64,000 nt of DNA from Sipunculus nudus (Eukaryota > Annelida > Sipuncula > Golfingiida > Sipunculidae). Location of the stretch: positions 28,157,729-28,221,728 of the forward strand of contig CM049314.1 in NCBI GenBank assembly GCA_026874595.1, written 5' to 3'. The notes under the pieces were generated by a model. The model saw only the letters and a program-made list of their open reading frames with translations, searched no databases and was not told where the DNA came from. Positions 968 to 57,179 of this stretch are shown here, piece after piece; the stretch's first letter is position 1; each line of letters starts with the position of its first letter. The position numbers and the translations under genes are program-made.

Positions 968-2392
968 ATGTTATTCATATTGGTCCTCTTTATGAAGTCC
1001 CCAGGAGATACGTGGTCTTGTATAAAGACTAATCCCTGCATCATGCGCCCAATGAAATCATTGAATACAATCCTTACAGAAGTTCAAATGACCGAGCTAT
1101 CAGCAGCTCCATTCGTCAATCTCGCAGGATGCCACATGAAAGAACTACAAAGTTCCCCGTTTAACGAGCTAAAGAAAACAGCTGTCCTTGTATTATCACA
1201 CAACAATATAACCGTGGTTCGACGGTCACATTAAAAAAAAAAACGTATAAAAAGGACTTTACTTGGACCATAACGGCTTGAGGGAGGTATCCCCTCATTC
1301 ATTCGACATGATGTACGATCTTAAGATAATTGATCTGAGTTACAAAAAGCTGACCCTAAAGGCATGGACGGCCTGTCTAAAGTCCAGAATTTAAATCTCC
1401 GGCATAACCAGCTGAGAAGTATAGGTCCTGCCTGTACGTCCAGTTTGAAATCCCTCCGATCGTAAAATAATTTACCTCGTGATATTGGCAGGAGAATCAA
1501 ATGGCCAGCGGCTCTCAAGTGGTTGGACCTCGAAAACAACATGTTCAGACTACTTCCCGCAATCGTTAATTGTAACTTCACAGTGACCATGCGAGGGAAT
1601 AATTGGTACTGCGGATGCAAATATGAAACGCAGAATTTGCCAAGCAAATTGGTAGTTGACTGGCAATGCACTGATCCGGAAATCTTACGGAAGTTTAAAG
1701 ACTTCGCCAAAGTGGCTTGCAAAGAAACCTCAAACACAAAACGTTTTAGAGAAATAAGAAATTCAAATATGAATAAGGCCCGACTACTTTATTACTTTCA
1801 AATGACAAGTGAGCAACCTGTATGCAAGGCCCCCACAATTGAATCTGAGAATTGAAAACTACAGTGCCATCTGCAAGAGCACATCTAACTCAGCTCCAAG
1901 TCTTGAAGTCACCTTGCATGAAGCTGACGGAAACCTGAAAAGGCAGAAAAAAGCATCAAACTTAACAAACGCCGTTGAGACTGACATGTTTCTGCCCATG
2001 AACGGAGTGTAATTTATGTTGTATGCGTAGCTACAAACCCTGTCACTCTGGAGAACATTATATACTTAACTTCTGAAACTAACGTGCCCCAGACATCAGT
2101 CCCAATAAAATTGGAAAGAACACACGAGCGAATCAGCCTCTTTCCCCATGGAAACCTTCAGTGATGGAACTGGAGCCTACGCCTTTGGTGTTGCATTCCC
2201 GGCATGCTTTATGATGATATGTCTGATGATGAAACCAGGGGAACTACAAAGACAATAATCAGTTCATTTCGGTCTTGTTTTCTGTGCCTTCTTTGCTCCG
2301 GCCGAGGCAAAGGTGCAGAAGATATGCGAGACCTGAATTACATTGAGCCTATGGGTTACGAAAACCCATGGCATATCGGGCATTCTGATTAG
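968..2392 (+). pseudogene. LRR-Ig transmembrane receptor pseudogene, unit A
   Basis: Close relative of 12979-14547, with the same protein readable in pieces across changing frames. The N-terminal part (968-1234) has the W-S-C-I-K-T start of the mature protein and ends in a stop after an A run at 1233-1243. The LRR part (1245-1520) has frameshifts and lost bases. The LRRCT and linker (1523-1855) include the N-N-W-Y-C-G-C motif. The Ig part (1857-2010) follows after another shift. The whole membrane helix is deleted at about 2080-2110. The cytoplasmic tail (2204-2392), with its Y-I-E-P and Y-E-N-P motifs, survives. The ATG used by the sister gene is ATA here; the next in-frame ATG is at 968. 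Clearly dead as a receptor. Confidence 0.85.
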
Positions 2393-3540
2393 AAACTATA
2401 GGGGTTCTTTTCACGTGCCTGATAGATATTTTTCTTTAGATCATAACGTTTCTGCCCACGTTGTTGTAGGTGCTGTGACCCCATCGGATATAAAGGAGGT
2501 GCCTTCAGGCTTGCCTGAAACGATGGGTTCGCATCACCTTGCAATTTTTTTTAATAAGGAAACAGCTCAGGAGGGCCATGCATTAACAAAATAAATATTT
2601 AATTTCATATGTTATTCATTGCGTCAATATGACAGTGTTCTTTTAATATTCACCAGAACGGTAATGGACTCATTGAAATATCGTGTTCTTGCTGCCAACT
2701 CTGATTGGTTGTTGCCATAATTCCAAATGTTTCTTCGCAGACGCGTCGGCAGGATAGTTTTGACCTATAGTCATTTAGGGCAGATTTGCAAGAAATGGCG
2801 ATTATTATAGTGCGTGACCACTACGCTGACATTACAGTTTATTTGATCAGCTACTGATAGCTTTGGCGATTATATTTTAACTACTTGTGTACACATAACG
2901 AAAATTATCTGCGATCTTTTGCGACACCTTGAGGGGTTATTTGAAATACTCGTGTACACAAAACGTAAATATATATTAATAGATAAATGTATATGTGTGA
3001 GGTGTATTGTGCATATTTAACATCACATTTTCCTCGTAATTATTATTGAAAATTATTTTCTTGCTTGTGTGTTCTCTGTCCCTAAAAACATTATGTAAAT
3101 GTTTTGAATAGTTTCACATTTTATTTAGCACACATATTCTATTACCAAAACTAACTCCTTTATTGATTTGATTTCTTATGAAGGTTGGTGGAAGAGGTAA
3201 TTTATGCATTCATGGACCTCCATGCCCCTTATCTAATCTCTTTTCAATTACACATAATTCTTTCACTTCGCGAAACTTAGTACAAAGGTTAGTATTTGTC
3301 AGTTATCTTTAAACGGCCTGAATATTAGTTTCAATTTGCCAAAACAATAATGGACTTTATTTTATGTAAATATTTCTGCGCATTAAGGTAATAATCGTTG
3401 TTTTTCTGTTTCATTGGTTTCATTTAATTATTTCAGGTGAGAAAGGTATGATTTACATGAAGCAGTGATTCATGTTGAAGTGAATCATTCAGATATCTTG
3501 TAGTTCTAGTTAGATGGCTGGTTTTAGGCTTTTGCCTAAG
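2393..3540. other. Duplicated 3' flank of the LRR gene (unit A)
   Basis: No coding signal. It aligns with 14548-15740: the 'agggccatgca', 'attcaccagaa' and 'atgatttacatgaa..cagtgatt' blocks occur in both copies in the same order. The unit-B copy has gained a (TA)n tract and several indels. The match fades near 3540, which I take as the right edge of unit A. Confidence 0.6.
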
Positions 3541-5925
3541 CTGAACATGCACAGTATTTTGATAATATAGACTTCACACGTTCAATATAATTCAACCGAT
3601 TCCTGTGTTGTGTTGTTAGTCATACGACAAGTAAATGAACCCTCCGGCTTCGATCTCATAAAAATGGTTTATATCCTCAGACATACGTGATTTTGTGTAA
3701 ATTCATCATGGTATTAAATAACTGGATTAATCTTCAGAAAAAGCTGCTTTTTATTATTATTACCTTAACCTACCTTGGCCCACCAATATTAGAGCCGTCA
3801 CATTTAGGCTGTTAAGCTTTCAAGTGTATCTAATGGCAAGGAACAATATTTATATATGAATCGTTTTAATTTTATGAACGTCTTTATGTCATCTTACGCA
3901 TAATTTATCCTTTTATTCCCTGCAAAATAAGTTTTCTCTCATTCCATTATCAGTTTATGTATAAAACCTTATGTATGTATATGTGTATTGACACGAAACG
4001 TCCTTATTCATGGTCCCCCAGTTAAAATGATGAAAGGGAGATCATTGTTGATTATCCATGTAAATACAAACCTGTTGTACATTTCTCAGTTGAATAACTC
4101 TCTGTCGGCATGAATTTTATGGAGGCGTTTTACGTTAGCTAGTATGAATGTCGATATAACACTGTTGCAGTTTTCTACGACTAGGTGTTGTGATCGTGAC
4201 TATGGCTGCCCTTTATACGCAATGGAGATTTGGAATGGGACTCTTGAATTCAGAAACGGTTGAAGATATAGCTAAATTGGGTACACGGGAGTCCTTGGTC
4301 TAATTCTGTCCTATGTGCGCCATCTGACGGTAGCAGGTGTATTCTCAATTATCGATTTTCCTATAGGAAATCTCGGAGTCAGGTTGGCAGGGCAGAGCTA
4401 GCATATCGCCGCATTGTGAATGCACTATTATTTTGTTATAAGGTTAAACAATTCTTTTAAACAACTAAGTGACCCTGAGGTCGTCTAGTCATCTGTCATG
4501 CTAAGAGTAACATGGCTTTCAGTGGTAGAGAAGACCTAGTTTGTATGAAACTCACTGACTGTTCAGGTGCAGTAGCTCGCAAAAAAACTGTAGCTAGCTA
4601 TATATCAAATGATAATATCAGATAACGGGCTTATCTTTAACAGTAAGTCTCTTTTCTTGGGGTTTAGTCGGTGTACCTTCCAAAATCCCTGTTGTCTGGT
4701 CAGTGAACCTGATCATAACCGGCAATTCTGCAGGCACATGCTCTTAGAAAGGGGATATTTAAATGTTATAACATTCATGCCCTGTGGTGAGCGTTAAAGA
4801 AAACACGGCTGCAGAATCAGGCCTGGAGCAGGCTTATATTATGCTTACGTACAATCAAATTAAATTATAGGAGATAAATGTTAATATACCAGCTACTGTT
4901 GTAGTACATGCAATAAACGAGAAAGCTAGCATTACTTACATGCGTAGGCGTTAAGTACACGTATGCAGTGCGTATGCATAACGCAGCTTGAGAACGGGCG
5001 CCTGTGATTTATTAAGACTCAGGCCTAGCATTATTTATTCAACAGAATCGGGCCTAGGATATAGAGTTGCAGAAGCAGAGAAATTATCTGCCAGAGGAAT
5101 TCCCTCTCACTGATGTCTAACTTTGGAGTTTCCCCATTCGTTACCATGCATTTGCGTTTTCAATCACTATCATGAGCAATGGAAATGTGCTGCATACGCA
5201 TACGCATATAGACATACATGCAGGAGCTATGTGCATTTATTTAGCTGTATTGTTCAATTTACGGTAAAAGCATTACATTTGCACAAGGCTTTGCGTGCCC
5301 TAAAATATATTTTAAGCACAGAACTATCGCAAATTTTTCTCAGAACGAGGACAACTGCCTAGTATTAATTTTTGAAGGAATAATGTATATCTTTGAAAAG
5401 ACCCTCAAGTCCATAACGTTAATGTAGATTGCTCCAGATAGTTTGAGGAAAGTTTATACTGAGTAAATCCCAATGAGAACATTGTAAGTTTAAATCATTT
5501 GAACTACGTTTTAACCTTTCTCAGAAACACATTAAAGCCATATATTTTTTACGAGTAGGTAAATGTTCAAAATGGTGTTCCTTTTGGATGTGTGAAGATA
5601 GTAACAGTTTTAATCAGACAAAAAATCAAGTAAATTAGCTGGGCTTATAAAAATAACATTAACGTCGGCTTTTAATGGTAAATACTCGGCGAATGGCATC
5701 CATTTTGAAATAAGGGACAGATCTCCGATAAACATGTGGTCGAAAGTGCTTCTCAAGATGTCGCTTAACGCTGTTAATGAAAAAGGAAAAGTGGGAGATA
5801 TAACAAACACGTGTATTCTCAACATATCCAGAGAGTATGATTAAAAACTGTGATTTGTTATGTTATGTGTAATTCCAATTGTTTAATCCTTACATATAAT
5901 AACTGAATATTCCGTCTGTCTGCAG
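3541..5925. other. Unassigned AT-rich stretch
   Basis: No ORF here looks like a known protein, and I could not find upstream SLC23 exons although the gene's earlier transmembrane segments should precede 5926. Small ORFs (for example 5123-5362) lack recognisable motifs. It may be intron or intergenic sequence. Confidence 0.3.
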
Positions 5926-8072: not shown

Positions 8073-8288
8073 GTGAATCAAGATCTTATCTAGAACTCTA
8101 GTGATATAAGTTGAGACCTTGTCCTATCTCCAAAGAAAGAAAATTTTATATTTTTTTTTGCCTTACGAATACTTCGCTAGTTGCCACAGAAATCCCAATA
8201 TCACAATAAGAACCTTTGCCAATTTAAACCAGTCAGGTTGTCAAATCCTTCAAGATTATATGTTTTCTCGGTATGCATTTTTATCTAG

Positions 8289-8384
8289 GGAATGCAAGTC
8301 TGGATCAGACATTGCTAATGATACTTACGTCCACACTGTTTGTCGGAGGCGCTCTTGCCATGTTTCTGGATAGTACAATACCTG
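8289..8384 (+). pseudogene. SLC23-like transporter, last recognised exon, GC donor
   Basis: A 96-base exon, phase 1 to phase 1, after an atctag acceptor. It reads N-A-S-L-D-Q-T-L, then F-V-G-G-A-L-A-M-F-L-D-S-T-I-P-G, which is the SLC23 C-terminal helix ending in the family's 'D-N-T-I-P-G'. The donor is G|GCAAGT, a good match to GC-AG introns, and the same donor is seen in the unit-A copy at 170. The exon for the cytoplasmic C-terminus was not found downstream. The exon is intact, but it belongs to a gene with damaged upstream exons. Confidence 0.75.
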
Positions 8385-11270
8385 GCAAGTATGAATCAAT
8401 AAACACTTGACACATTCGCTTAACAATGCGGACAATCTCTGGTGTACCCCCGCTTAACGGACCATCTTCGGTTCGACTTATCGTTTTATACTAATTTAAG
8501 AACCCCCCTTCGGCGGTCACCTCGCTCATCAGGACAATGGACACTCCAGCGGAACGTTACAATTACAACCGCTAACGGACACAAAAACGGCTTTCTTGCC
8601 CGGTTGGCGGATGACAACTTTTTTTAACACACTAACTGCAATAATGTGTTGCTTCATATTTAGACAGTTGTCTAGGATAACGAAAAAGAGACATTTGTAC
8701 CCCATTTACCTCAAAGTTTGTAATTTGTTACCAAAACTTGTTGGTACTTTTGGAGTTCCCATTATGCCGAGCTCTAACTGAAGTTAAAGAGTCACTCTGA
8801 TTTTGTACCACATTTTTCTCTCATTGGCGAGGGACCCAGGATAATAATGTATTTCTCAGGAGTAACACATCGTAGACTTTGTTACTTTTTAGATCAAAAG
8901 TGACCATAGACGTTTATTAGTCACCTGTTTTGTGATTAATTTGGCTCTTGATTGCTCACAATGAAGAACTCGTGTATTCCTTGATTTTTTCAGGGGTCTG
9001 TAAGGTTAAATGTTTAAAGAGTTTAATTTTGCCATCACAAACAATGTTAACATAGCAAAGGTTAAAAAGATTTAGTTAGATACAGGAGAAAAACACTTAG
9101 TAAATAGTTGGAAATATTATGTAAATAAGATATAATATATAAAATAATATAACTTTAAGTTGAAAGACGACGACAAACAATAAAAAATAAATAAGGGAGG
9201 CAATGTTATATGAGGTTTCGTCATATATTGCGCATGTTCATGGATTACAATAGAACTATGCTCCACGTAACATTATCTTTGTGTCGAATTTTAATCCGAA
9301 ATTATTTTTACATGCATTCTATAACTTGAAGTTCCAGATCACAAGTCCAAGGGAGATACTTTATAGGGGATAGAAATGATACCATTTACGACTTCCCATG
9401 CGGAATGAGTTGGATACGAAAAATTAATATTTAAAATATTTCCTCCCGTGTTCCCCGACCTACAAGGGATGCTACAGGTGGCACAAGAAGTGATGTCACT
9501 CAGTGAACAGAGGAAAGTGAGGAAACGGAAGTAGAATGTACTTTGCACGTAGTTCTGTAATTGAGCAACTGAATTCTACATGCGCATACTATGCTAACGA
9601 TATACGAGGGAAAGCGGTTTTTAATATACGTTGTGATCATAAACCTTTGGTGAAATAATATATGAATTAGACGTAGTGTCATGTGGTTCTATAAAATTCT
9701 AATTAATCTATTAAGGCGAGGCTATCCGATCAAACCTTGAGCAGGTGCCGAAATACAGATAGCTCATTCACTGGTCAGCTAATATTATCCAGACGACCAG
9801 TGAGATCTCCCTTGAGAATACCTCGAGGTCTTGTCGAACCGTTCGGCCCGTATTGCTTAAGCGACATAATTTCACGGCTCCATTCATCAACGTCAAAGGT
9901 AATTATTCGCCATAAATGGTAGTAACATGAATGAATGGTGTGCTCACCAGACTCGCTTTAGGTATAACTTTCTGCTCACAACATCTTATAGTTCAAGCCT
10001 TTCCGATCTTAAACCTGTCCTTTAGGTTGCAGTTCTAACCTTTCCAATCCCAGTTCAAATATATTTCCTTGAAAACCACGGGTTGCTGTAAACTCTGTTT
10101 CCCATCAATAGTTTATTAATAGGTTTTATTTGCGCATGATGTTTTAAAACTGTGTCCCGCGCCAGTTAGCTAGACCTTACTTTTTTCTTGTTTTTGCTTA
10201 TTGCTATATACCTATATTTTAAAATTAAAAGGTAAAATTAAATTAACTTGGGTCTCATTAAAGTCTTTTGCTCATTTATGCACTGGATACACTATGGATT
10301 TCGTCTCCGATTAAGGGGTAAGGGGAATTAAATTGACCATCACTCCAAAAATTATTGACATTAGATAAAAAAGTACCAAACAAGTCCACTTGGATGATAT
10401 AAAAATATGAAATTATGTCAGTATTGATTTCTACAGGGGTCAAAACGTTATTGGTTCGCCTTGACCACAATCTAGAAATTAGTAACCCATCATTTCATTG
10501 CATGCTGGCAATAGATAAACGATCAAATTATGAGGGAGCCTACTACACTCCCAATTTTGTTTTTTTTTTTTCCGTTTTCCTTTAATGGGCATAAGCAGGA
10601 GCAATATTATGCCTATTCTTTCACACTATCAGTTCAATTATGCTTTATACTAAAGTTTCCCAGCAAAACTATCCCAGCACACAGTCTCAGTACCTCGCTT
10701 CGGCTGTTTGACACCTTGTTATGGCTCTGCGTGTTGGTAAACATAGTCCATGTGTTTATGTTTACCACAACATGGCCGTGTGACCGGAGGTATGATTCTG
10801 ATCCGCAACACGCCGTGTTTCAGCCAGCGAGAACAGTGTGTTTCATTTTTGTGGGCCAAGTCAGTCAGGGCATCTCCTGATTGACTCGTAATGTGTCGCA
10901 CTATGTTTATGTTGACACCTGTGATCGCGCCCGGTCCACTTTTTTTACGCTCGTTCACAGGAAAAAACTATTTTTTTCGTGTTAATTCAACATGCTCTAT
11001 ATGTGATTAGGCCCCTTAAAGTGACCTTTAAATATTTTAAATGTTACGAGAATAAGAATGTAGACAGCCCATGTAAAAGTAAAAATGGCTGCCAATTAAG
11101 CGGTTTATTATCATTAGAATAGTTTTGCCTTTTATAAAGGGTATTCAATAACTGTTATTTTGTTATAATAACATTGCTTTAAGTCAGGGGTGAATTTTGG
11201 AGACCTGAACGAACATAAAAATGGGCATTGTTTGTATCTGCGTTGATGAATTATTGTACGTGCTTCCGGG
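8385..11270. other. Unit-B flank with blocks not present in unit A
   Basis: No gene recognised. About 9216-9350 and 9660-9720 match 270-470 of unit A. By contrast 8440-9215, 9351-9660 and 9725-12540 have no counterpart there and look like later insertions or A-side losses. Part of 8440-8640 is richer in GC and open (61 codons), without a recognisable motif. A short poly-T at 10560-10571 and ORFs near 10530-10960 also show no known domain. Confidence 0.4.
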
Positions 11271-11335
11271 TTGGCGTCTTTAGTGATTCTCCGGTGGCAT
11301 ATCAGGGATTATGAATAAAGTTGGACAGCACAAAG

Positions 11336-11387
<52 letters not shown>

Positions 11388-11707
11388 GTATGTGTTTGTG
11401 AGTGTGAGAGAGGGGGGTTGAAAGGTTGAGAAGCATTTTACATTGTGGACTCTACCTAAGTGAAAATACTAGTTTGATTTGGTGTGTAATGGTAGGGCTG
11501 CAAATGTATCTGTTTTGGCAGATTACAAATTTCGAACAGGGATAGTAGGGGTCAAAATGTTCAATAAGTATATTAACCATTGAATGTGACCTCAACTTGA
11601 AGCCTAATTTTAAGTAATAGAATTTATTCTAAAACGCTCATCCAGTACGGTTTTAAAATTAATTTTATTTAAATCAGCAGGAGAAATGATAAAATGTACA
11701 AATGGAC
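11271..11707 (+). repeat. Recent 437-bp tandem duplication, unit 1
   Basis: Begins 'ttggcgtctttagtgatt' and contains a (TA)n tract at about 11337-11383 followed by a short GT stretch. Immediately followed by a second copy that differs at only a handful of positions plus microsatellite length. Confidence 0.9.
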
Positions 11708-11772
11708 TTGGCGTCTTTAGTGATTCTCCGGTGGCATATCAGGGATTATGAATAAAGTTGGACAGCACGAAG

Positions 11773-11828
<56 letters not shown>

Positions 11829-12151
11829 GTATGTGTTTGTGTGTGTGTGTGAGAGGGGGGTTGAAAGGTTGAGAAGCATTTTACATTGTGGACTCTACCT
11901 AAGTGAAAATACTAGTTTGATTTGGTGTGTAATGGTAGGGCTGCAAATGTATCTGTTTTGGCAGATTACAAATTTCGAACAGGGATAGTAGGGGTCAAAA
12001 TGTTCAATAAGTATATTAACCATTGAATGTGACCTCAACTTGAAGCCTAATTTTAAGTAATAGGAATTATTCTAAAACGCTCATCCAGTACGGTTTTAAA
12101 ATTAATTTTATTAAAATCAGCAGGAGAAATGATAAAATGTACAAATGGACT
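11708..12151 (+). repeat. Recent 437-bp tandem duplication, unit 2
   Basis: Direct head-to-tail copy of the preceding block. Visible differences are the longer (TA)n (about 11773-11824), extra GT repeats, and single-base changes near 12062 and 12113. The near identity points to a young duplication, or an assembly duplication at a microsatellite. Confidence 0.9.
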
Positions 12152-12219
12152 TTGAATTTGTTTCGTTGACTGACTTGTCCGCTAGATTGATTTGCATTAT
12201 CCTTCAGAAAGTGTGTGTA

Positions 12220-12231
12220 GGGGGGGGGGGG
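12220..12231. repeat. Poly-G run
   Basis: A run of about 12 G in an AT-rich context, likely unstable and error-prone in sequencing. Confidence 0.8.
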
Positions 12232-12978
12232 GTACTCACTTTCACCATCTCCCTATGAATATGTTTCTGTTTCTTGAACTGTCCACTAAAATTAGTCCGC
12301 TGAACTATTTGTGGGATAATGGCAGGAAACTCATTTAATGGCAAATCCTAGGATCATAAATAAAGGATAGCGGTTGTTTATTGCTCCTCCAGGCTTGGTA
12401 ATGTTTGGTAATCGCTTCCCCTGGCATTGCATTGTTTGTGAATAATACAACTAAATGTTGCCTGTTCTAGGAATTATGGAGATTATATTTAGTGTCTGCG
12501 TGTTGAAACTTCTCTTTAATTGTATGTGATCAAATAAGCTATTAAACACGCTTTCTCTTAGCTAAAGCCGTTTGTTGTTAAACGTCTTTTGGTTCCCTAA
12601 TAACGTTACAAATAATTGTTCCTAATCGCATTGTTAACGCTAAATTATATCTAGTGGAAATGTTACTGCATTAGATTAGGTTATATTTACTCACACAATC
12701 ATGTTTTTATTGGTTTTAAAATATGCACATTTACACGCTAATTGGGCCCACGCAGTCTTCTGTAGTCTTAACCCTATGTACATCCAAACAGTTCAGTACG
12801 TAGATAATATACTCTAACTGGAAACAATATATTTCTTCACGCTTTTATGGAAAGATTTTAGTTATAGAATCTTTTACAAATACTGCATTGCTGGTTGACA
12901 ATGTAATGAAGATTCTGTGAACATGGACTACTGGTGTTAACAACAACAGACGTTGATTACACAGGATAAGGTGCTACA

Positions 12979-14547
12979 ATGATTCGCCTGGTGTTATTCA
13001 TGTCCGTTCTATTTATGGACGCAGGAGGCACGTGGTCTTGTATAAAGACCGATCCCTGCATCTTATGCCCGATGAAATCATGGAACAGAATCCTTACAGA
13101 AGTTCAAATGACCGGGCTCTCAGCAGCTCCATTGGTTAATCTCGCAGGATGTCACTTGAAAGGTCTACAGAATTTCCCGTTTAACGAGCTGAAGAAAACC
13201 ACTGTCCTTGTACTATGAAACAATGATTTAAACGTAGTTAGACGGTCACATTTCAAAAACCTGCATAAATTAAAAGCACTTTACTTGGATCGTAACAACT
13301 TGAGGGAGATGTCCCCGCATTCATTCGACATGATGTACGAGCTTAATATAATTGATATGAGTTACAACAAGCTGACCATCATCCATCCTAACGGTATGGA
13401 CGGACTGCCTAAAGTCCAGGTTTTAAATCTTCGGCATAACCAGCTGAAAAGTATAGGCCCTGCCTGGATGTCAAGCCTGACCAGTCTGAAATCCCTCTTA
13501 TTATTAGATAATTTACTTCGAGATATAGGAAGGGGAATCAAATGGCCTGCGGCTCTCAAGTGGTTGGACCTCGAAAACAACATGTTCAGACTTCTTCCCA
13601 CAATCGTTAATTGTAACTTCACGGTGACCATGCGTGGGAATAATTTGTACTGTGGATGCAAAGATGTAAGGCAAATTCTGCCAAGCAAATGTGTCATTGA
13701 CTGGCAATGCATGGATCCGGAAAACATGCGGGAGTTTAAAGACTTTGCCAAAGTGGCCTACAAAGAAACTTCAAGCACAGGTCGTCTTAGAGAAATCAGA
13801 AATTCAAATATGAACAAAACCCGGATACTTTATTACTTTCGAATGACCAGTGAGCAACCTGCTTGCCAGGTACCAAAAATAAATCTTAGATCTGAAAACT
13901 ACAATGTTATTTGCAATGGCACATCCAACCCTGCCCCCATTCTTGAAGTCACCTTGCATCAAGGAGACAGGGACCTTAAAAGGCAGAAAAAAGCATCAAC
14001 TTTAACAGACGCCGGTAAGACTGAAATGCTTCTACCCATGAACGGGAGTGATATTTATGTTGTATGCGTAGCAACAAACCCAGTCACTCTGGAGAATATA
14101 ATGTTAAACTTGACGATCGCTTCTGAAACCCACTTGCCTCTGACATCGATACCGATAACATCCTTACCGATAGACGTTGTTTGTGGAGCCACGGCTTCAA
14201 GCATTATCTTATTTTTGCTGATAGTATTTACAAGCTACGCCATCCTACCTAGATTTACCGCATGCACGAAAGAGCGCACGAGCGAATCAGCTTCTTTCCC
14301 CATGGGAACCATCAGTGATGGAACTGGAGCCCACGCATTTGGTGTTGTAGTCCCTGCACCGCTTTATGAAGATATGTCTGATGATGAAAGCAGTGGAACT
14401 ACAAAGACAACAATCAATTCATGTAGGGCCTGTTTTCTATGTGATCTTTGCTCCGGCCGAGGCAAAGACGCAGAAAATATGCGAGACCTGGATTACATTG
14501 AGCCTGTTGGTTACGAAAACCCATTGCATGTCGGGTATTTTAATTAG
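12979..14547 (+). pseudogene. LRR-Ig transmembrane receptor, near-complete with one in-frame TGA (unit B)
   Basis: One uninterrupted reading frame of 522 codons, except for TGA at codon 80 (13216-13218). ATG 12979 opens a signal peptide (codons 1-19, M-I-R-L-V-L-F-M). Then come W-S-C with an N-terminal cysteine cap, about five leucine-rich repeats (codons 75-215), an LRRCT with N-N-L-Y-C-G-C (220-265), one C2-type Ig domain (293-379, cysteines in V-I-C-N and V-V-C-V), a membrane helix (402-425) and a 97-residue cytoplasmic tail. The tail has an acidic Y-E-D-M-S-D-D-E patch and a C-terminal cluster Y-I-E-P, Y-E-N-P, G-Y-F-N. Architecture and absence of introns resemble AMIGO-type LRR-Ig adhesion receptors. 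The TGA falls in the L-x-L-x-x-N core of the first LRR, where unit A has L-S-H-N-N. It is therefore a recent nonsense change, or possibly a sequencing error, not a designed stop. A possible 5'UTR acceptor (ttacacag) lies at 12954-12964 and AATAAA at 14754. Confidence 0.85.
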
Positions 14548-15123
14548 AAACTAATAGGGTTCCTTTCACGTGCCTATTAGTGCAAGTCATAGCTTCTAGT
14601 AATAGATAATTTATTATATTTTCATATTGTCGTTTCTTTTCCATGTTTTTGTGGGTGTTGTGCCACCATCGGATATAAGGGGTGCCTTCAGGCTAGTCTG
14701 GAACTATGGGGGCCCGTCACCTGGCAATGTCCACATATTCAAGAAAATATAAAAATAAATGTGTGAATAAGGGAACAGCTTAAGAGGGCCATGCAATATA
14801 AAACAATATATAATTCATTGTGTCATTCTAACGTCATTTTTTTATCTTAATATTCACCAGAAGGATGACGAACTCATTGAAATATCGCCGTGTTCTTGTT
14901 GCTAATTGTGATAGTTGTGCTCATATTCTCAAATGTTTCTTTGACAGAGCGTCGTCAGGATAATATTGACCTCTAGACATTCGGGACAGAATTGTAAGAA
15001 ATGGAGATTAGTAAAGAGCGTGACAACAATGATGACATTGCAGTTTATTTGCTTTGCTACTGATAGCTTTGGCGATCTTCTGCGCCACCTTGAGTGGCCA
15101 TTGTAACTACCTGTGTACACAAA

Positions 15124-15181
<58 letters not shown>

Positions 15182-15740
15182 TTTCCTTAACTCCACCTTG
15201 AGGGCTATGGTAACTACTTGTGTACACAAAATAAACTTTAATAGATGTGTTTTGCATATTTAATATCACACATATTTTGTATTATTTATGGAAAATTATT
15301 TTCTTATAAGGATGTTCTCCATAACTGATAATATAATATAAACCAAATAAATACATTTTATTAGCCTTCAACATACCAATTAACCAAAACTTATTCCTTT
15401 GTTTATTTGATTATTATATAAAAGATAGTAAAATAGGTAATTATGCATTCGTGGACTTTTATACACTGCTTATATATAATCTCTTTTCAATTACACAGTA
15501 GTTCTTTCATGGTGTGACACACAATACAAAGGATATAATTTATTTACCATTAGTAAAGGCCCGATCGTAAGTTTTGATTTGCCCAGAAAATAATGGATTT
15601 TATTTTATGTACATTTTCCTAAGCATTATTTTAAATAACTGTTGGTTATGATTTACATGAATCAGTGATTAACGTCCCAGGCATGCTAATGAAACAATCA
15701 GACATCATGGAGTTAGTGTTTAGAAGGTTTGCTTTCAGAA
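14548..15740. other. 3' flank of LRR gene in unit B
   Basis: Aligns with 2393-3540 of unit A. Contains AATAAA at 14754-14759, about 205 bases after the LRR stop. Around the (TA)n tract two near copies of 'caccttgag...taactac.tgtgtacacaaa' occur (15089-15123 and 15196-15231). A similar pair is visible in unit A at about 2870-2965. Confidence 0.6.
15127..15179. repeat. (TA)n microsatellite
   Basis: About 26 TA units inserted in the duplicated flank; the unit-A copy lacks a long tract here. Confidence 0.95.
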
Positions 15741-18700
15741 ACTGTATATGTACAATTTTAAAATAAAGATTTGTTTTGCTTAGATGCAGGCCAATGCGGA
15801 ATATGAACGTGATGTTTCACAAATAAAAATTTGAACACGTTTGTCCTTTTGGCCTTGAACTGCGATCTTGGCGGTAAATGGCTCCTTGACCACCGTGTGA
15901 TTCTGAAACCTTGTATCCTGGTTATAATTCCCGGCGCGTTTGACAGAAAAACGTACGAAAAATGCTATCGCGAGTTTCTTTCTTTCTCTATTTTCTTGGG
16001 GGGGGGGGGGGGGCAGGAGGGTCTTGGCCGGTGGACTAATATTATATATCATAAGTGTATAAACGGGTAATAGACCCAGTTTTAAGGTGTGCTGTGCAAA
16101 ATGAAAATAGAAAAAAATGCTTGAAATGGCAGATTTAAGCATGTGTGGAACTGGCATTTGACTCAGTCAAGCCTCACTTGCATGGTCACTAAATGGGACA
16201 AAAACAATCCACATGACTCTCGATCCCTTGTCATTCTTGTCATATGCCAGCATGCGATAATGATGAACCCCCAATTCATGCAGGTAATCTTTTTGCATAA
16301 TGTTGAAAAGACCACAACAAGCGTCGCTGCTCTTTCATTGTACATTTATATGTTCAACAATTCTTGAATCAGGTGTATCACTATCAAGGGAAGCACATGC
16401 ATAAGTTTCTGTTTATATTTCAATACCACGCCACGGATAGTACACCGCAAAATAGTTCAACAGGTGTATCAATAAATAAAATATGTTTGACGGACAAATA
16501 CCTTTGGTTGAAAACATTTGGGATGGATGTTATCGATGCATACTTTATATTTGCTCAATTTATTTTTGTAAATTACCCTTCTAAGGCGAAATGGCTCGAT
16601 TTTGGCGCATAAGTGTGCTGTGCCCATAAATTGTGTACTTGAGACCTATCCTTGACTTTCATAAAATATGTCATGTGTGGAGAATGCTGCAGACCTACAG
16701 AGCTGCGTAGAAAACCATGTTGAAACCTGGTTGAGGCATGCTCTCATAGATAGCATGTCTAACATGGTCAGATGGTATATACGTGTTTGATGTTTTAAAA
16801 TGTAGATTAAGCGATCTAGGTAAAACCACCGGGTCTTTTAAATATCCTCTAAATGATTGTACAGGTCTGAATATACGCAATTACCATATATGATAATGAC
16901 AAATGATGTCGGTTATTATAGATACAATATATGACCGGATATATGGTATATATGGTTATGACAGTTCAAGAAATAATATGTATTTTTAGGAATGCTTAAC
17001 ATGCATATTAATGTATAACGATTTATCGTAGTCTAATAGAAAACTTATATTGCAGTAACCATCCCGAGCCTTAACATTCGGAAAACCTTGCAATCCGACG
17101 GTGTTTTGTAAAAAATAATGAACGGAATCCATGGAAGTTAGCCTTAACAAACCGACAGCTATGGACTCCGACTCCGACATGACATTTCCCGAAACTAACA
17201 AGGATACCGACATATTTTCTGACTTGACAATCCGACCAGTATATTGTCCTTTGATGTCTGTCGTCGGGTTCATGCACACAGCACTCTGATTAATAAGGCG
17301 TGAAATCCATGGATGCCTAGTGTTCTAACCGTACCGTTATTGAGTCAATTTGGCTTACTTATTAAGTCAGTTTGGATTCGTTTGTGGCAGAAATGAACCT
17401 CTTCGTGTGTGGAACACGCAAAGGTGGAGAACAAGACCGGGGAGCTTATCTAGGCACTCAACAGCGGTGACCACGTGACCGGTGAGGAATACCTCGCATT
17501 GGACAACATGGAGCTCACGGAAGCAATGGCAACGGCCGCTGTTATTGTGTCAATGGTCAAAGAAGACGGAGGCGGCAGAGACAGCTAGTCTGAGGGAGAA
17601 ACTCTCAGAGAAGCGCCTGGGGAAGTGGAAACATGGGTACAGCATATGAAGGAGCAGGGCTTCACTGCAGGGGACGTTGATGCCGACCGCGGACTGCTTA
17701 GAAAAGTCCGTGAAAATCAAATTAAAAGAACCAGATAACAGACAGATTTTGCTTGTATTCATGTACATGAACTCAGTAGATCAATCGCCTGTTCATTTAT
17801 TATGTACATTTGGTTAATGTTTGCACAATCCAGTCAAATAAGCAGGAAAGGTTATTATTTGCTTTCCAAGTAAGTTTTTTTTCGGAATACTTGCAGGGTC
17901 AGTCTAGATATTTTAATTAAGTCACTTAATTTCACACATATGTAGGCAGGTAGAAAAATTATTTTATTTTTTTTTTAAACGAAATACATTTTCATTACAA
18001 TAGAGATTGATGTTAGAAAAAAGAAGCGATATAAAGCCCGAAATAGGTATGTAGACTGGTCGAAAACTTCCAGATTTTTTAATAAATGATAAATAATTGC
18101 ATTACAATAGAAATTTGAAAATAATAGCAAATTAATGCGAGAAATATATTTGTATATATCATCATAGAATATTTCCATGCTCAGTCCAGCTAAATATGTT
18201 ACTTAATTTCATTCCTTTGTAGGCAGGTATAGAATTGCCCAAGAAGGGTCAGACAAATCGCTGCAAGTGCTATAAAGTAAAAGTGTTGTGTAATTGACAG
18301 CATAAATTGTAATAATAAATGAGGACAGATTCAATTTAATTCTTATAAAAATAAACCACATGTTCTAACTTCACTGTTTTGATGAGTAATACCATATCTG
18401 TCGGATAAAACCATACAAATGGTATGCTAGTATTCAGCATAACAGTGGCATGAACCGTGAAGATTAATGATGTATAATTCAATTATGTGCTTACTTTTTT
18501 GTTCTGGGTTATATCATATCGGGTAATAACATATATAAAAGATTGATAGAATTCAGAATAGGAATATTCAGGAGTAGTAAATCCATGCATGCAGTCTGAA
18601 TTCAGTCGATAATGGAGAATAAATAAGAATGTTGTCTCTGATTTGATTGGCAGTTTATATGTGAAATTGCTGGCCCTACATGTTTGGAAATATTCCCTAG

Positions 18701-19928: not shown

Positions 19929-20087
19929 CATCATACAAGGTGTTATTATTAGATTTCAGAAGTTTCGGATGTTTGAACCCATTCATAACAGCCCTCTGTG
20001 ACTTTACAATTATTGAGAAAATTAATTAATATTTTTTTATCCTTTTTATTTTATTTTATTTTGTTGTGCACAACGTTGTCTGTATAG

Positions 20088-20422
20088 CCATGGTTTCTAG
20101 CATTAGCTTATTCTTGCAGATAGTTGCTTTAGGCTATGGCTTCCTTCTTTGATATGTCGCATGCAGGAAAAAACGCACATGTGAATCGGCTTCCCTACCC
20201 ATGGAAACCGATGGTGACGCAATTACAGCCCACGCCTTTGGTGTGGTAGTCCCTGCACCGCTTTTTGAAGATATGACAGATGATAAAAGCAGTGAAACTA
20301 CAAGGAGAATTACAAGATCACATGGGTCTTGTTTCCTTTGTTGTCTAAACGAAATGCTTGACCAGCACTTTTTTGAGCCTAAAGTTTACGAAGGCCCAAG
20401 GCATGTCGGGTATTCTAATTAG
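20088..20422 (+). pseudogene. LRR-Ig receptor remnant: membrane segment and tail only
   Basis: Matches 14190-14547. It starts in the membrane helix ('gccatggtttctagcatta', compare the A-T-A-S-S-I region) with a frame break and a stop. From 20201 it is open as H-A-F-G-V-V-V-P-A-P-L-F-E-D-M-T-D-D, ending G-Y-S-N then TAG. The central tail is shorter, and Y-I-E-P has been replaced by F-F-E-P. The entire extracellular part is missing, with no trace for over 1 kb upstream, so this copy is truncated at its 5' side. Confidence 0.8.
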
Positions 20423-24480: not shown

Positions 24481-25189
24481 TGCTCAAACCATAGTATCCC
24501 GACTTTGTCTGGGTTTACAATAAGTCAGTGTATTCTTAATCACCTAGCCTGTCAGTTGGATGATTTTCACCGCAGTCAAGAGGGTTTTTTCCGGACCTCT
24601 TCGTTGATTAACCCAAGACATGCCACATGTGCCACATGGCTTTTTTAATGCTTTTCATTTAGACTAGGCCTCTACATTTTTTTCCTGAGAAATTTCACAC
24701 ATCAACATTTTTATACTAGATGTTTCTAAGTGACGTCCCATTCAAATTTGAAGACAGGATTATCAATCATCTCAATGGTACAGGGTACATTAATATTACC
24801 TTCTTTCTTGAAAGTTTCTCAAAACATTATCAGAATATACACAGGAATATTTTACCAAAAAAAGTAAGCTCTGTTTAATCTTATTTCCATTTGCCATTCT
24901 CTCATCACAAAAAAAGGGAACGCTTGCGTGTTTGTAGCAGTCGTAGGTAGATTCTGGTCGCCTTGTCCTATTTTAATGATTGCGGAAGATTAAGAGAGTT
25001 CGATGAGTTATGGATCATGCCTTCGTTTAGGATCGTTCCGTATAATGAATATGTTAAATAAGCCATCACTGTTGAAATAAACAAGCTTCTTTATAGCTGA
25101 GGTGTTATGTTGTTGAACATGAATTTCAAATCTATACATAATAATTCCCATAACATTGTCTACGCATGATTATACTAATTATTATTAAT
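24481..25189. other. Unassigned spacer
   Basis: AT-rich, no recognisable gene or repeat. Confidence 0.4.
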
Positions 25190-25335
25190 AATAGATGTTC
25201 ATGAAGCCTTTAATTAAACCCACGCAGTTTTCTGTGATTCTTGTCTTAACTTCTCATGCAGGTCAACCAGTTCAGTATAAAGATGAAGTAAATCTTAATG
25301 GAGAGATAATATTTCTTCACACCTTTGTTAGAGCG
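25190..25335 (+). pseudogene. 5' flank of fourth LRR-Ig copy
   Basis: Matches the sequence upstream of the unit-B gene (about 12725-12850): 'cccacgcagt.ttctgt', 'cagttcagta', 'atatttcttcac'. The match stops near 25335 and picks up again at 28405 inside the receptor coding region, so the intervening 3 kb replaced the 5'UTR, start codon and signal peptide. Confidence 0.65.
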
Positions 25336-28300
25336 ACCTGGTTTATAAAAAATAAGTTGCATATGCTCAATTATGATTTAATTTCTGAAAATCTATGCGA
25401 AAGATCACGAAGATCACATACGTCAGATCGGCTACGGTTGAAACGCTGGACGCCAAGTTGGGAGAGGTTCATTCAAGCTAAATTGATTGGCCTTAATCAT
25501 AGTATATACCTGATCAAGTATGGACGATGAAAGTTTAAAATGATTCAGCGTGTGAGGTTACAATCCCTACATTCTTTCTATCATGAAAGTTCTATGTATT
25601 TTCTGTGTTGCTAAGTCTTGTTGTAAAAGTCTGTTACCTCATGCTGTTTTGCTAGGATCCTCAAAACCTATTTCAAATGTGTACCAACATTTCAAAGTTC
25701 ATATGTCTACAAACCTATTTTCTTCTAATGTTTGATAGTGATCATGTTAATGTATCCTTTCCTCTCTTGTCACTTAATATGAGAAAATATTTCAAACGAA
25801 GATAGGTCTTTAACTGGCTAAGCAAGAAAAATATGAAAAATGGTATAAGTTTTCTCCAAGAGACGCATTCCATAAAATCAAATGAAAATACTTGGGAAAT
25901 CAGTGGAATGGAACTTTTCACACAAAACAAGTCGTAGCTGTGATGTGAGCATTCGTATTGGCAGTAATTTAGAATATTCGGAAAAATATGTGAATATTAA
26001 TCCACAGGGTAGATATATCTTAATACACTGTTCTATACAAGGCTGTTTTTCTGCTGATAAATTCTTACGCTCCTAAACTTCAAAATGGACAAGTACCTTT
26101 CTTCGAAAAATTCCATGAATAAATCTCCCACGTTCTAAATAATGAACAAGTTTACATTGTTTGGGGAGGTGATTTTAATTTTCATTTTAACGATCTTGAC
26201 GCAGATGGAGGAAATCCAAAGTCAAGGGAAAAAATCGTTAATACTATATCGAATATCATGGCCAATATAGATCTTTGTGACATCTTGCGAGTCCGTCATG
26301 TTTCATCAAGAAAATATACATGGCGTACTTTTCATCCATAAAATAAGGGGCGTTGAGATATGTTCTTAATTTCTAACTCCCTACAAGATATGGTGTACTC
26401 TTGCAATATTATCCAAGCTATCGAAACCGATCACTCTGCTATTACTTTAAATCTTCAATCATATCCAAAGGAGCGACAGGGCCCGGCCACTGGTGTTATA
26501 ATTGCTCCTTGATAGAGGATGATTTTTATATTAGCAAGATGAAAAAAATATAATGAAATGAAAATGTGAGATACACAGACGTGATGATCCCCGAGCCAAA
26601 TGGGAATATCTAAAATTTCGCATACGAGTTTTCTATTGAGTACTGTGAAGAAAATGCTAGGGAAAAAAGGGAAATATCAACATGTTAGAGAAAAAAGTAT
26701 CCACTTTAGAATGCAGGTTAAAATAAGCGAATGTTTTTGTTATAGAATAATATATATAAAGCAAAGGACGTGGTAGATTAATATTATAATTCTAAAACAA
26801 AAGGTGCCATAATCCGCTCACGTGTATAGTGGGCCGAGGAAGGTTAGCGGAATACTAGGTATTTTCTTGGATTAGAGCGTCGAAATAAAACAAAATCAAC
26901 TATCCATAAACTCTTGATCGATGACATTGAAGTTCAAATAGAGAAAATAGTTTAAAGCTATAAAAAAGCACTTTACTGATAAATATAAAGAACACATTAG
27001 AATATCTGAGGATATGTGTCATAAATATCTTGATGAGCTCCAGGCACCACAGATTTCATATGAGGAAAAGATGAGATGTAAAGGTAAAAAAACTCAGTGT
27101 CAGGTGAAAAAGGCTCTGGAGAGCGTGAAAGATAATAAATCTCCAGGGAACGATGGGCTCCCAAAGGAATTTTTCTTTTTTTTAATGAGTTAGGAGTTAT
27201 GTTAACTGAATGTCTCAAAGCAAATTTTAGAGCTGGTTCTCTAACTACCATCAGAAGCAAGCCATACTAACATAAATTCCAAACCAGACAAAGACAATAG
27301 ATTACAAAATTCTTAGAGACCTATTGAACACAGACATGAAAGTCTTAAGTAAAATAATGGTTTCACGGTTGATTAAAATACTGCCGTCTGTTATAGAAAA
27401 GGGTCAATATTCTTTTATGAAGGGCCGCTTCATTTGCGAACCAATAAGATTAATTAAGGACGTTTTACAGTACACAAATGATCTGAATATTCCAGGTGTC
27501 ATTCATGGAGCGGATCTTCAAGCAGCATTTAACTCAATTAATCATCAGAAAAATTTGGATTTGGAAAATCATTTATTCGGTGGGTTAAAATTTTGCATAA
27601 AATTCTTGAGAGCTCTGTTATAAATAATGGATTTATAACCAGCTATTTCCCTTTACAAACAGGTAATCAAGGAGACCCCTTGGCACCTTATCTGTTTATT
27701 CTCTGTCTAGAGGTCCTAGCGATAAATATCAGGAATAATAAACAAATGAAAAGGTAGAACTCTTGGGGGAAAAGAATTTAAACTTTGCGCATTCGCTGAT
27801 GATATTACATTTTTTTTAGAATAATAACACTTCACTGATACATTCTCTATCTACATTGAATATATTTAGAATATATCGTCCCTACAATTAAATTTCGAGA
27901 AGTCCGAAATAGCTTGGATTTGAAAATGGAAGAATAGAAAAATATATTTTATAGTTTAAAGTGGATTAATTAAACAACAAGACCTATGAAAATTCTAGGG
28001 ATACTTCAATCATACGAGAACGATATAATTGAGAAAAATTACAGAAATACCATTACAAATTTGAGAGCTGTTTTAAATATATGGTGTTGCAGACATTTAA
28101 CCATCTATGGAAGAATTGAGGTTGTCAGATCCTCAGCTTTGTCAAAAATGCTGTTTGTAACAAATGTTCTCGATCCACCTAAGAATATTGTTGAAGAGAT
28201 TACAAACCTCATTACTAAATTTATTTGGAAAAACAAAAAAATCAAAAGTCAAACATTGCACAATTATTGCATCTTATGAGAAAAGTGGCTTAAAATGCCG

Positions 28301-28404
28301 GATTTTATGAGCTATGTGAAAACACAGAGGGTAATGTGGGTTAAGAGATTATTATCTGATTCTAATAGCAAGCTCCTACAGTTAATTGACTCTAATTAAC
28401 TGGT
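25336..28404 (+). mobile_element. Non-LTR retrotransposon (LINE), decayed, in LRR-Ig copy 4
   Basis: An endonuclease then reverse transcriptase order is readable across frameshifts and stops. The endonuclease has L-Q-E-T-H-S at 25854, G-G-D-F-N-F at about 26166 and a T-D-H-S-A motif at about 26424. The RT has S-P-G-N-D-G-L-P-K-E-F at about 27139, an L-x-A-A-F-N-S-I motif near 27517, Q-G-D-P-L-A-P-Y-L-F near 27669, and the catalytic F-A-D-D at about 27791. A C-terminal F-I-W-K-N-K-K occurs near 28222. This endonuclease-RT style fits the L1/Tx1-like group, named with caution. Little is seen of ORF1. The 3' end (rest of ORF2, UTR, poly-A) is missing at the junction with the LRR sequence, which is unusual because LINEs normally lose the 5' end. 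Confidence 0.85.
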
Positions 28405-29090
28405 ATTGGAGGTCTTGTTTGTGTACGATCCCTATATCTCGTGCCCAGTGAAATCATGGAACACAACCCTTACAGTAATTCAGATGATCTGGCTTGCCGG
28501 TGTCACAATCTTCCCCGTTTCATAAGGTTAAGAAAATCAATATGTTCATATTCTATGTAAACAATATAACTGTGGTGACACGGTTATATTACAAAGGTCT
28601 GTATAAATTGAAAGAACTTTACCCGATCAAAACAGCCTGAGAGAGATATACACTCATTTATTCGGCATGATGTTCAAGCTTGAGATAATTGATTTAAATA
28701 ACAACAGGCTGACCACCATCTACTCTAAACTCTTTGACGGCTTGTCTAAACTTCACTATTTAAAAATCAGTCTTTATAAGCTGAGAAGTAAAGGTCCTGC
28801 CATGGCGTTAAGCCTGATCAGTCTGAAATCCCTCCGATTATCGAAAAATGTCATTCGAAGTATAGGCATAAGAATAAAGTGGCCAGGGGTTCTTAAATTG
28901 TGGGACCTCGAAAACAGTTTATTTAGACTAAAATTGTAATTTCACAGTGATTATGCGTTGGTATAATTTGTACTGTGGATGATGCGAAGGTGCCGAACAA
29001 TAGTGTAGCTGATTTGCAATGCACGGTTAAAGAAATTATGCGGCACTTTAAAAACTTGCTTTATGTTACATCATACTTATAACAAGCAAA
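28405..29090 (+). pseudogene. Fourth LRR-Ig receptor copy, extracellular LRR part
   Basis: Picks up at the mature N-terminus (C-P-V-K-S-W-N at about 28440, the same as in unit B). It continues with stops and frame changes through the LRRs. The longest open piece (28667-28939) has E-I-I-D-L-N-N-N-R-L-T-T-I-Y, L-K-S-L-R-L-S and W-D-L-E-N-S. A remnant of the LRRCT 'L-Y-C-G' follows at about 28967. No Ig, membrane or tail part is found. Dead copy. Confidence 0.82.
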
Positions 29091-47446: not shown

Positions 47447-47448
<2 letters not shown>

Positions 47449-51180: not shown

Positions 51181-51183
51181 GTC

Positions 51184-52924: not shown

Positions 52925-53433
52925 TCGGCAATGAGTATGATTCTACTGTTTCTTTAACATCAGTAACTTCTGTTTTCGTTTGAGAATATCGACTCTTGAC
53001 AATCCCTCTTTTTATCTGTTAAGCAATTAAGGTATGCCTGCATCTCCTTTATAAAGTCCTAATAGAGGAGTCCTAATGACCAGCACGTCCTTGCAAGATA
53101 TTCTCATTCTCCTGCTATTTCATGAAGGCTTCAGCATTCTGGATTTATTTGTCAAGTTTCTCCCACATTTTATCACTATTCCTTTGCCTTCTATCGGCTA
53201 CAGGACATGCAGCCTTCTCCGTCATTCTTACAGATCTCCCACTTTCAGTGTGAAGCTCATCCCCTGGTGTATTTCTGTCACACACATCTGAAGTATTTAA
53301 CACGGACATCTTTCATTTAACAGTAAGGATGGATGTCTTTAGAATCGCGCTTGAAGAATGAAACCTTTCAGGGAAGACAGTTGACAACAAGTTGTTGAAT
53401 AGGCGTCCACTCGTGATGATAGAGGAGTTTTCC
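52925..53433 (-). other. BEL/Pao 5' leader
   Basis: Between the 5' LTR and the first gag-like piece. No convincing tRNA primer-binding site beside the LTR; on the minus strand the sequence after the LTR begins GGAAAACTCC. No long ORF. Confidence 0.5.
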
Positions 53434-55688: not shown

Positions 55689-55696
55689 TTATAAAA
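55689..55696 (+). promoter_or_regulatory. Possible TATA box of the intact LRR-Ig gene
   Basis: TTATAAAA about 95 bases before the ATG at 55791. Position is plausible for a short 5'UTR, but the region is AT-rich and the match could be chance. Confidence 0.3.
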
Positions 55697-55790
55697 CCAC
55701 ATGATGTCCGCTACAACATGAAGTATAATAGGGCGGTAAACACAACTCTGATAGTATTCGTCGGTTGAAATTAGTAGTAGCATATATATC

Positions 55791-57179
55791 ATGAAACTTC
55801 TCAGCGCAAAATCGGCTGTCGCCTGTTGGCTGGTAATCGTGACTCATACGTGTTTAGCCATGAGTCCAAATTGTGATTATCAAGAAAGCTGTATTCTTTC
55901 TTCTATCATGAATCGGGATGGAAAACTTAATATTTCATCGCGAATTATTTTATCCTACCTGAAGGGGTTAAATTTTTCTTGTTGTGAGATATCATATGTG
56001 GCTCCACATAGTTTTGAAAATATGTCGAACATCGAGTATCTCATAATGTCAAACAATAATATGACGGTCATAGAACATGATGTATTTTGCGGTCTCTCTG
56101 AGGTGAAGGAGCTGTATCTGGATTGTAATAAGATACAAAGAATTCATTCTGCCGCATTTAAAAGAATGAATCTACTTCAAATTCTGGACCTTCACCATAA
56201 CAGCCTAATGGACATGCAAGAAGGAATTTTTCAAGACCTGCCTCATCTCGACTATTTAGATCTGAGATTTAATGGTCTTACAAGTGTACACATGGATCAT
56301 TTTTCCCAAGTGTTAGGCTTAAAAGTGCTTCGACTGTCACATAACAGAATACATAAGATAGGATTTGTCGATGCAATGCCTGTCTCACTTGAGTGGCTGG
56401 ATTTAACATCGAACAAGATTCGGATGTTACCAAACTTTCCTTCGCGTAAGTGTACGATAACTTTAATGGATAATGAGATTTATTGTGGATGTAAACTTGA
56501 AAACGCCATACTCCCGCCATTGGACACGTGTAAGGTACAATTCCAATGTTCTTCCCCAGCAAGCTTAAAAAATCTGTCCCCTAGTGTTAATATATCATAC
56601 AGTACGAGAGGCATAAAGCAAGCTATAGTCATATCCAATTCTACCATAATGGATAAAAACCTTCAGGTTTTTCTGGAACAATTGAATGCCACGACAATTT
56701 GCAGAATTACTCATCCACATATTGAATTCAATGAAAGTCACATTAATTGTTATGGCTTCTCCAACCCGGCTCCAACTATAGAATTGTACAGAGATGGGGT
56801 ATTGATATGGTCTCAGAAACCGAATGTGGATAACGCGGGAGTAACCTATTTGTCGCGAGAGGGAAGCAATATAAAATATGGTTATACATGCATTGCAAGA
56901 AATGATGTGACCATGGAGGAAGTGGAGGTGATGCTAACAAAGTTTAATGGATCGAGAAACCGCACCGCACAGACGATTGAAACTGCTGACAAAATTCCTG
57001 ATTCGGCATTTTGCCTAGAAGGTTTGGTTCTTCTTCCCCTCAGCCTGGCTGTTCTACTCATCTGTGTTGCCACCTTTTCATTATACATGGGACAGTTGCT
57101 TTATGAGGGAAAGTTTTCAAGAATTACCAAAACCATTGAAACAGAGGATACTGATTATGTTGCAGTAAGCTTACAGTAA
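55791..57179 (+). CDS. LRR-Ig single-pass transmembrane receptor (AMIGO-like), intact
   Basis: Intronless 462-residue ORF, the only undamaged member of the family here. Signal peptide 1-23 (M-K-L-L-S-A-K-S-A-V, cleavage after L-A-M region). N-terminal cysteine cap with C-D-Y-Q-E-S-C. Seven leucine-rich repeats of about 24 residues (57-216; L-x-x-L-x-L-x-x-N-x-I cores such as L-D-L-H-H-N-S-L). LRRCT starting D-N-E-I-Y-C-G-C (217-270). One Ig C2 domain with cysteines about 320 and 367 (I-N-C-Y and Y-T-C-I-A-R-N). Many N-glycosylation sequons. Membrane helix 411-433 (L-V-L-L-P-L-S-L-A-V-L-L). The tail is only about 25 residues, ending T-D-Y-V-A-V-S-L-Q. LRR plus one Ig plus TM in one coding exon is the AMIGO plan; family members act as cell-surface adhesion or recognition molecules. 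The ligand is unknown. The tail is unrelated to the 97-residue tail of the 12979 gene. Confidence 0.9.
   Translation: MKLLSAKSAVACWLVIVTHTCLAMSPNCDYQESCILSSIMNRDGKLNISSRIILSYLKGLNFSCCEISYVAPHSFENMSNIEYLIMSNNNMTVIEHDVFCGLSEVKELYLDCNKIQRIHSAAFKRMNLLQILDLHHNSLMDMQEGIFQDLPHLDYLDLRFNGLTSVHMDHFSQVLGLKVLRLSHNRIHKIGFVDAMPVSLEWLDLTSNKIRMLPNFPSRKCTITLMDNEIYCGCKLENAILPPLDTCKVQFQCSSPASLKNLSPSVNISYSTRGIKQAIVISNSTIMDKNLQVFLEQLNATTICRITHPHIEFNESHINCYGFSNPAPTIELYRDGVLIWSQKPNVDNAGVTYLSREGSNIKYGYTCIARNDVTMEEVEVMLTKFNGSRNRTAQTIETADKIPDSAFCLEGLVLLPLSLAVLLICVATFSLYMGQLLYEGKFSRITKTIETEDTDYVAVSLQ

Follow-up and report, generated by a model that had tools for sequence, protein, structure and literature searches.

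Type I transmembrane (TM) receptors that join leucine-rich repeats (LRRs) to an immunoglobulin (Ig)-like domain correspond to the LRR_Ig/FN3 class in the excerpted text of PMC2235866. Predicted receptors of this kind are encoded in a 64,000-nt stretch of DNA from Sipunculus nudus (the window, to which all positions given here refer), where five homologous loci, A to E, lie on the plus strand with coding parts that have no introns. These loci probably form a tandem cluster of LRR-Ig TM receptor genes, likely of a family that is restricted to the lineage and undergoes ordinary birth-and-death turnover, in which E is intact, B carries a single nonsense codon and two or three copies (A, C and D) are decayed. 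Duplicates and pseudogenes, by which birth-and-death turnover is recognised, stand side by side in the window.

According to the excerpted text of PMC2225406, the coding region of the LRRN1, FLRT and LRRTM genes is contained, entirely or nearly so, in a single exon, a feature shared by the copies described here. The predicted order of an LRR arc, a C-terminal cap, one Ig-like domain and one TM segment is also that of the vertebrate SALM/LRFN, AMIGO, NGL/LRRC4 and LINGO proteins, which provided the top fold matches. In contrast to these vertebrate proteins, the listed matches of the window receptors are confined to the LRR part, with the C-terminal halves being without match, no LRRNT or LRRCT domain was reported by Pfam, and the genes are arranged as a local tandem cluster with pseudogenes.

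Among invertebrates, LRRIG proteins have been named in immune surveys of scallop and amphioxus. LRR-IG also appears in the abbreviation list of an Aplysia immune survey (PMC9334734, in excerpt), and such proteins share the LRR plus Ig arrangement, the likeness being one of name and arrangement. The Toll-like receptors (TLRs) of the oyster, 57 of 83 of which lie in tandem arrays and nine of which are listed as pseudogenes in the excerpted text of PMC4346834, resemble the locus in precisely these two features, although the window receptors show no TIR match and positive selection was not detected in the single pair tested (A/B).

Predicted receptor genes and their relationships

Copy E (55791..57179, plus strand) is an intact frame of 462 codons, with a chance probability of about 1e-14 as calculated from base composition, and is predicted to encode an N-terminal helix, seven LRRs, an LRRCT-like cap, an Ig-like domain, a TM segment at about residues 411-432 and a short tail. 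Copy B (12979..14547, plus strand) consists of a 522-codon frame with LRRs, an LRRCT-like cap, an Ig-like domain, a TM segment and a tail of about 100 residues, open throughout except for a sole nonsense codon (TGA, 13216-13218). Copy A (956..2392, plus strand) is a pseudogene in which alignment with B revealed three in-frame stops (1232, 1248 and 1463) and six frame-shifting indels, the exact list of which depends on the alignment; one of them, a deletion of 104 bp at 2113, removed the TM segment. The codon of A that matches the first one of B is ATA (956), the next in-frame ATG being at 968. Copy C (20072..20422, plus strand) retains the 3' part only, with the TM segment and the tail, and shows a TGA at 20150 and an in-frame deletion of 24 bp. 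Copy D (28411..29057, plus strand) retains the LRR part only, the Ig domain, TM segment and tail being missing, with an in-frame TGA at 28980 and five deletions inside the aligned part, all of them frame-shifting.

Thus, the copies broke in different ways, by indels and TM loss in A, by one stop in B, by 5' loss in C and by a stretch of about 3 kb plus 3' loss in D. As C and D do not overlap when placed on B, they may represent two separate copies or two fragments of the same copy, so that the total is four or five copies, three or four of them broken. An initial annotation of this DNA had described five intronless copies of one architecture, one intact and four broken differently. The absence of introns, the intact frame of E and the diversity of lesions were all confirmed, and homology holds for the five places, but the number of copies has to be given as four or five, and the full order of parts is seen only in A, B and E, with the TM segment lost in A. 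When a family profile compiled from parts of all five loci was run against 2164 six-frame segments of at least 20 residues, it detected 14 segments, all in these loci, whereas the best two segments outside them reached E-values of only 0.28 and 0.62.

The LRRs are of the extracellular type, as judged by Pfam LRR_8 scores of 116.5 bits in E and 81.5 bits in B, and in E seven LxxLxLxxN-like repeats follow each other with a spacing of 23-24 residues. A single TM segment near the C-terminus was indicated by hydropathy peaks of 2.58 for the window at residue 411 of E and of 2.41 at residue 400 of B. No match to the TIR domain of Toll-like receptors was obtained with E or with the frame of B read from 13219 (E-value up to 0.1), and signalling domains such as TIR were not reported by Pfam. 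With NCBIfam, just LRR cross-matches far under the cut-off were obtained, and a scan of viral contigs with E gave no match.

The structure of E was predicted from an alignment of three window pieces with seven of 18 database matches, which superseded a first model based on the five window pieces (mean pLDDT, the predicted local distance difference test score, of 46.2). Residues 61-210, in the LRR part, were modelled at a block pLDDT of 82-97. An N-terminal helix (residues 4-19), a candidate signal peptide, and a helix in the TM region (residues 419-438) were modelled at low confidence. When this model was used in Foldseek, the best eight of the 50 matches listed were all LRR-Ig chains (SALM5, SALM2, AMIGO-1, NGL1, LINGO-1 and NGL-3). 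VIA-align also listed 50 matches, mostly to the LRR part; AMIGO, NGL and LINGO were not among the matches listed, which excludes nothing.

Relatives of the proteins were sought by a word-based protein search. With the whole of E, 18 matches at an E-value of 0.001 or less were found among 3990 candidates, none covering more than 50% of the query. The C-terminal part of E (residues 215-462; 1694 candidates) and that of B (residues 110-442, numbered from 13219; 1346 candidates) gave no match at an E-value up to 10, each in one such search, from which remote relatives may escape because shared five-residue words are required.

The comparison of the copies with each other separates them into two groups. 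A, B, C and D constitute one subfamily with 67-79% nucleotide identity over their overlaps, whereas E shares only 28-30% protein identity with B and has no nucleotide match to A-D, either in the gene or in the near flanks. E and B have in common the LRRs, a C-terminal cap with the pattern YCGCK...LP...C...QC and the Ig-like segment, and their similarity outside the LRRs was high compared to 1000 shuffles, with z-scores of 16.7 for the LRRCT segment and 13.5 for the Ig segment (these figures, like the binomial and bootstrap ones below, assume independent sites). Both segments also scored at least 1.7 times the best that either of them reached against any of the 18 database matches. Their tails, short in E and of about 100 residues in B, could not be convincingly aligned. 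By these sequence comparisons E is apparently an old paralogue of B and not a live twin of A-D, so that the single five-copy family of the initial annotation holds as one subfamily for A-D, with E as a remote paralogue. As the tail of E cannot be convincingly aligned with those of A-C either, E and the A-D subfamily likely had different jobs.

A block of the tail common to B (14329-14403) and C (20228-20302), picked after viewing the alignment, is identical in 21 of 25 residues, with a dN (nonsynonymous divergence) of 0.07 versus 0.28 across the whole B/C overlap. This block was not seen in E.

Putative expression signals were also found. The sequence TATAAAA at 55690..55696 (plus strand), about 100 bp 5' of the start codon of E, is a candidate core promoter element, and none was present in the 270-280 bp scanned 5' of A and B. 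A, B and C each have an AATAAA sequence about 200 bp 3' of the stop codon.

Duplication, decay and selection

The homology between A and B is not restricted to the genes. A block on the A side (6..3574, plus strand) matches 8221-15772 in order, with gaps, and includes about 0.5 kb of near 5' flank, more than 1 kb of 3' flank and, at its left end, the terminal exon of an SLC23-type transporter. In the B-side block (8221..15772, plus strand), the SLC23 exon and the receptor are about 3.8 kb further apart than on the A side. Because the homology spans both flanks plus the last exon of SLC23, A and B were born by tandem duplication of genomic DNA and not by retroposition. In the simplest reading, the duplicated block would have started inside the SLC23 gene and ended beyond the receptor gene, with the exact join being inferred. 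Retroposition, which the lack of introns might have suggested, is thus ruled out for A and B, and D too keeps its 5' flank.

This flank of D (25046..25401, plus strand) matches the sequence 5' of A (473-853) and of B (12521-12921) with a best E-value of 1.6e-12, and is separated from the body of D by a stretch of about 3 kb (25402..28410, plus strand) with pieces of reverse transcriptase. A match to RVT_1 was found at 27276-27620 (33.6 bits versus a cut-off of 29.6), and a further piece at 27542-27754 remained under the cut-off. The presence of RVT_1 just 5' of D, with the matching flank beyond it, supports an insertion and makes the D locus larger than the initial annotation had drawn it. The element was there called a LINE (long interspersed nuclear element), a label that can be kept as the probable one from the reverse-transcriptase match. 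A clean LINE insertion was supported in its placement and not in its details: no trace was found of D's first codons (about 12922-13028 in B), and scanning around both ends of the insertion gave no exact 9-base target duplication.

A/B was the only pair well testable for selection, and the ratio of nonsynonymous to synonymous divergence (dN/dS), which the initial annotation had proposed to compute between intact members, was calculated for it. Over 468 codons, dN/dS was 0.39 (interval 0.29-0.51), with a dS of 0.34 and a dN of 0.133. By parts, it was 0.46 (0.27-0.81) for the N-terminal part including the initial LRRs, 0.31 (0.19-0.53) for the later LRRs and LRRCT and 0.29 (0.17-0.49) for the Ig part. 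By comparison, noncoding flanks treated as codons gave 0.83, 0.69 and 0.90, none of the intervals reaching below 0.56, and dN-like values of 0.27-0.29. The differences between A and B showed a third-position excess (62/473, 61/477 and 97/478 for the three codon positions; p = 0.0004). When the changes were polarised with D or C (23 unresolved), 30 nonsynonymous and 21 synonymous ones were assigned to the B branch, a synonymous excess over the neutral expectation (p = 0.008). Therefore, the A/B pair as a whole was under purifying selection, which was significant on the B branch alone and not on the A branch alone, and the dN/dS values, the codon-position bias and the branch tests indicate that constraint acted on the pair during much of the time since the two copies separated. 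The comparison, which covers A/B only and averages over sites, gave no indication of diversifying selection in the LRR or Ig part.

Nine lesions were counted in A versus one in B (one-sided binomial p = 0.011 for 1/10), without counting the ATA at the first codon of A. A is hence the older corpse, the lesion count alone separating it from B. It would follow that B outlasted A as a functional gene, and the stop in B may be recent, polymorphic or an assembly error.

Neighbouring sequence in the window

The SLC23-type transporter lies between A and B on the plus strand, with exons of its second half in order at 6179-6313, 7016-7135, 7429-7572, 7913-8074 and 8291-8398. They match residues 309-521 of an SLC23A1 chain, several being weak singly; a frame with four exons reached an E-value of 1.1e-13 and the fifth one 0.097. 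The permease was recognised by Pfam with 33.4 bits versus a cut-off of 27, and was the only match in 2600-12400 (all six frames, E-value up to 0.01). The first half of the gene was not found between A and the second-half exons at the sensitivity used. A broken second copy of the terminal exon (64..213, plus strand), with one extra base and then stops, lies 5' of copy A. At 11271-12152, within the additional sequence that separates the SLC23 exons from B, a 443-bp unit is present twice head to tail, the two copies being 97% identical.

As in the previous scan, three further stretches were translated with X at stops. Pfam gave no match at an E-value up to 0.01 in 34500-47500 or in 57180-64000 (four of six frames each), and in 15600-20080, at an E-value up to 1 in the three plus-strand frames, one match under the cut-off was obtained (DUF4259, 12.2 bits). 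Neither the Rfam search at gathering scores nor the tRNA scan gave a match. On the minus strand, 47584-54514 corresponds to an element of long terminal repeat (LTR) type, likely of the Pao class, with split open frames, direct repeats at 47584-48707 and 53434-54514 (84-89% identical), a match at 50289-50972 to Peptidase_A17 (43.8 bits) and one to an integrase that stayed under the cut-off. A dispersed repeat family was also observed at 21374-24037, 31329-34496, 40431-42609 and 60097-62839, with no opposite-strand pair at an E-value of 1e-15, and includes a 279-bp unit present three times at 21428-22252.

Alternative readings and function

The above results suggest a tandem cluster of LRR-Ig receptor genes in ordinary birth-and-death turnover, against which several observations weigh. 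The Ig domain of E scored 19.3 bits with Pfam Ig_2, under the cut-off of 27, none was reported in B, and the strands modelled in this region (residues 307-384) had a block pLDDT of 45-76, so that the assignment follows from the E/B similarity plus a low-confidence part of the model. The mean pLDDT of the model was 62.1, weak outside the LRRs, and the eight LRR-Ig matches had query TM-scores (template modelling scores) of just 0.29-0.38 with root-mean-square deviations of 8.9-16.6. The 18 database matches are a weak yardstick for the E/B similarity, since they were collected with the whole of E and mostly have no Ig domain. The stretch scanned behind E (57180-57800) contained neither AATAAA nor ATTAAA. 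Regarding selection, dN/dS was 0.67 (0.32-1.51) for the TM segment plus tail, the synonymous excess on the A branch (33 nonsynonymous and 17 synonymous changes) was not significant (p = 0.096), and the similar numbers of nonsynonymous changes in A and B give no sign of B being more constrained, which only the lesion count does.

E could instead be a single-copy gene for adhesion or guidance, stable and conserved, with A-D being the dead remains of a separate local subfamily without large or ongoing expansion. The low identity to B, the lack of nucleotide similarity to A-D and the tail that resists alignment are compatible with this, as are the purifying character of the A/B selection and the first Foldseek matches, which are neuronal adhesion molecules. 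However, outside the LRRs E and B are specifically related to each other, they lie on the same strand within one 57-kb stretch, and a C-terminal half for which 5.8 billion proteins yielded no relative by word-based search would be odd for a conserved gene; we regard this alternative as possible, though rather unlikely.

That the cluster is part of a large, fast-evolving repertoire of immune receptors appears doubtful. Tandem duplication with pseudogenes is shared with the oyster TLRs (PMC4346834, as excerpted), and the C-terminal halves of E and B had no database match at an E-value up to 10, but the dN/dS of 0.31 (0.19-0.53) for the later LRRs plus LRRCT and the lack of reported signalling domains such as TIR argue in the opposite direction. 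The initial annotation had likened the turnover to that of immune or recognition receptors; duplication, independent lesions, loss of parts and an insertion are indeed seen, whereas the immune likeness found no support in the A/B dN/dS, which is the opposite of that expected under diversifying selection. E ends in TDYVAVSLQ (57150-57176), which fits TxYxxV, a tyrosine motif of immune receptors, although short motifs can arise by chance.

It is similarly unlikely that B still works as a gene and that its one TGA is an assembly error, a polymorphism or read through: one lesion in 522 codons versus nine in A, together with the synonymous excess on its branch, would fit such a gene, but the TGA is present in the given sequence. 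Finally, the unrelated tails (short with TxYxxV in E, AHAFGVVVPAP-EDM in B and C, of 100 residues in B) on related ectodomains could denote a lineage-specific, intronless LRR-Ig family acting as an invertebrate paired-receptor system that turns over by tandem duplication, with the logic of vertebrate activating and inhibitory paired receptors, which we hold to be quite improbable.

For the tandem cluster in birth-and-death turnover, the sequence and the predicted fold suggest that the intact protein would reside in the cell membrane, where the LRR arc and the Ig domain may bind a protein partner, as in the SALM, AMIGO, NGL and LINGO proteins, and the tail may signal or anchor. E would thus be a membrane receptor or an adhesion protein. 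Immunity and neural adhesion would both fit it: the tandem turnover leans towards the former by analogy with the oyster TLRs (PMC4346834, in excerpt), and the purifying selection and the best fold matches point rather to the latter, the predicted fold being equally that of neuronal adhesion molecules.

If many loci of the genome had related ectodomains with different tails, they would constitute a new animal receptor repertoire, likely in an animal without antibodies. As the evidence stands, the window holds a clean local record of a receptor subfamily that was copied as DNA, retained for a while and lost piecewise, a real and well-preserved case of gene-family turnover in a kind of receptor that is already known.

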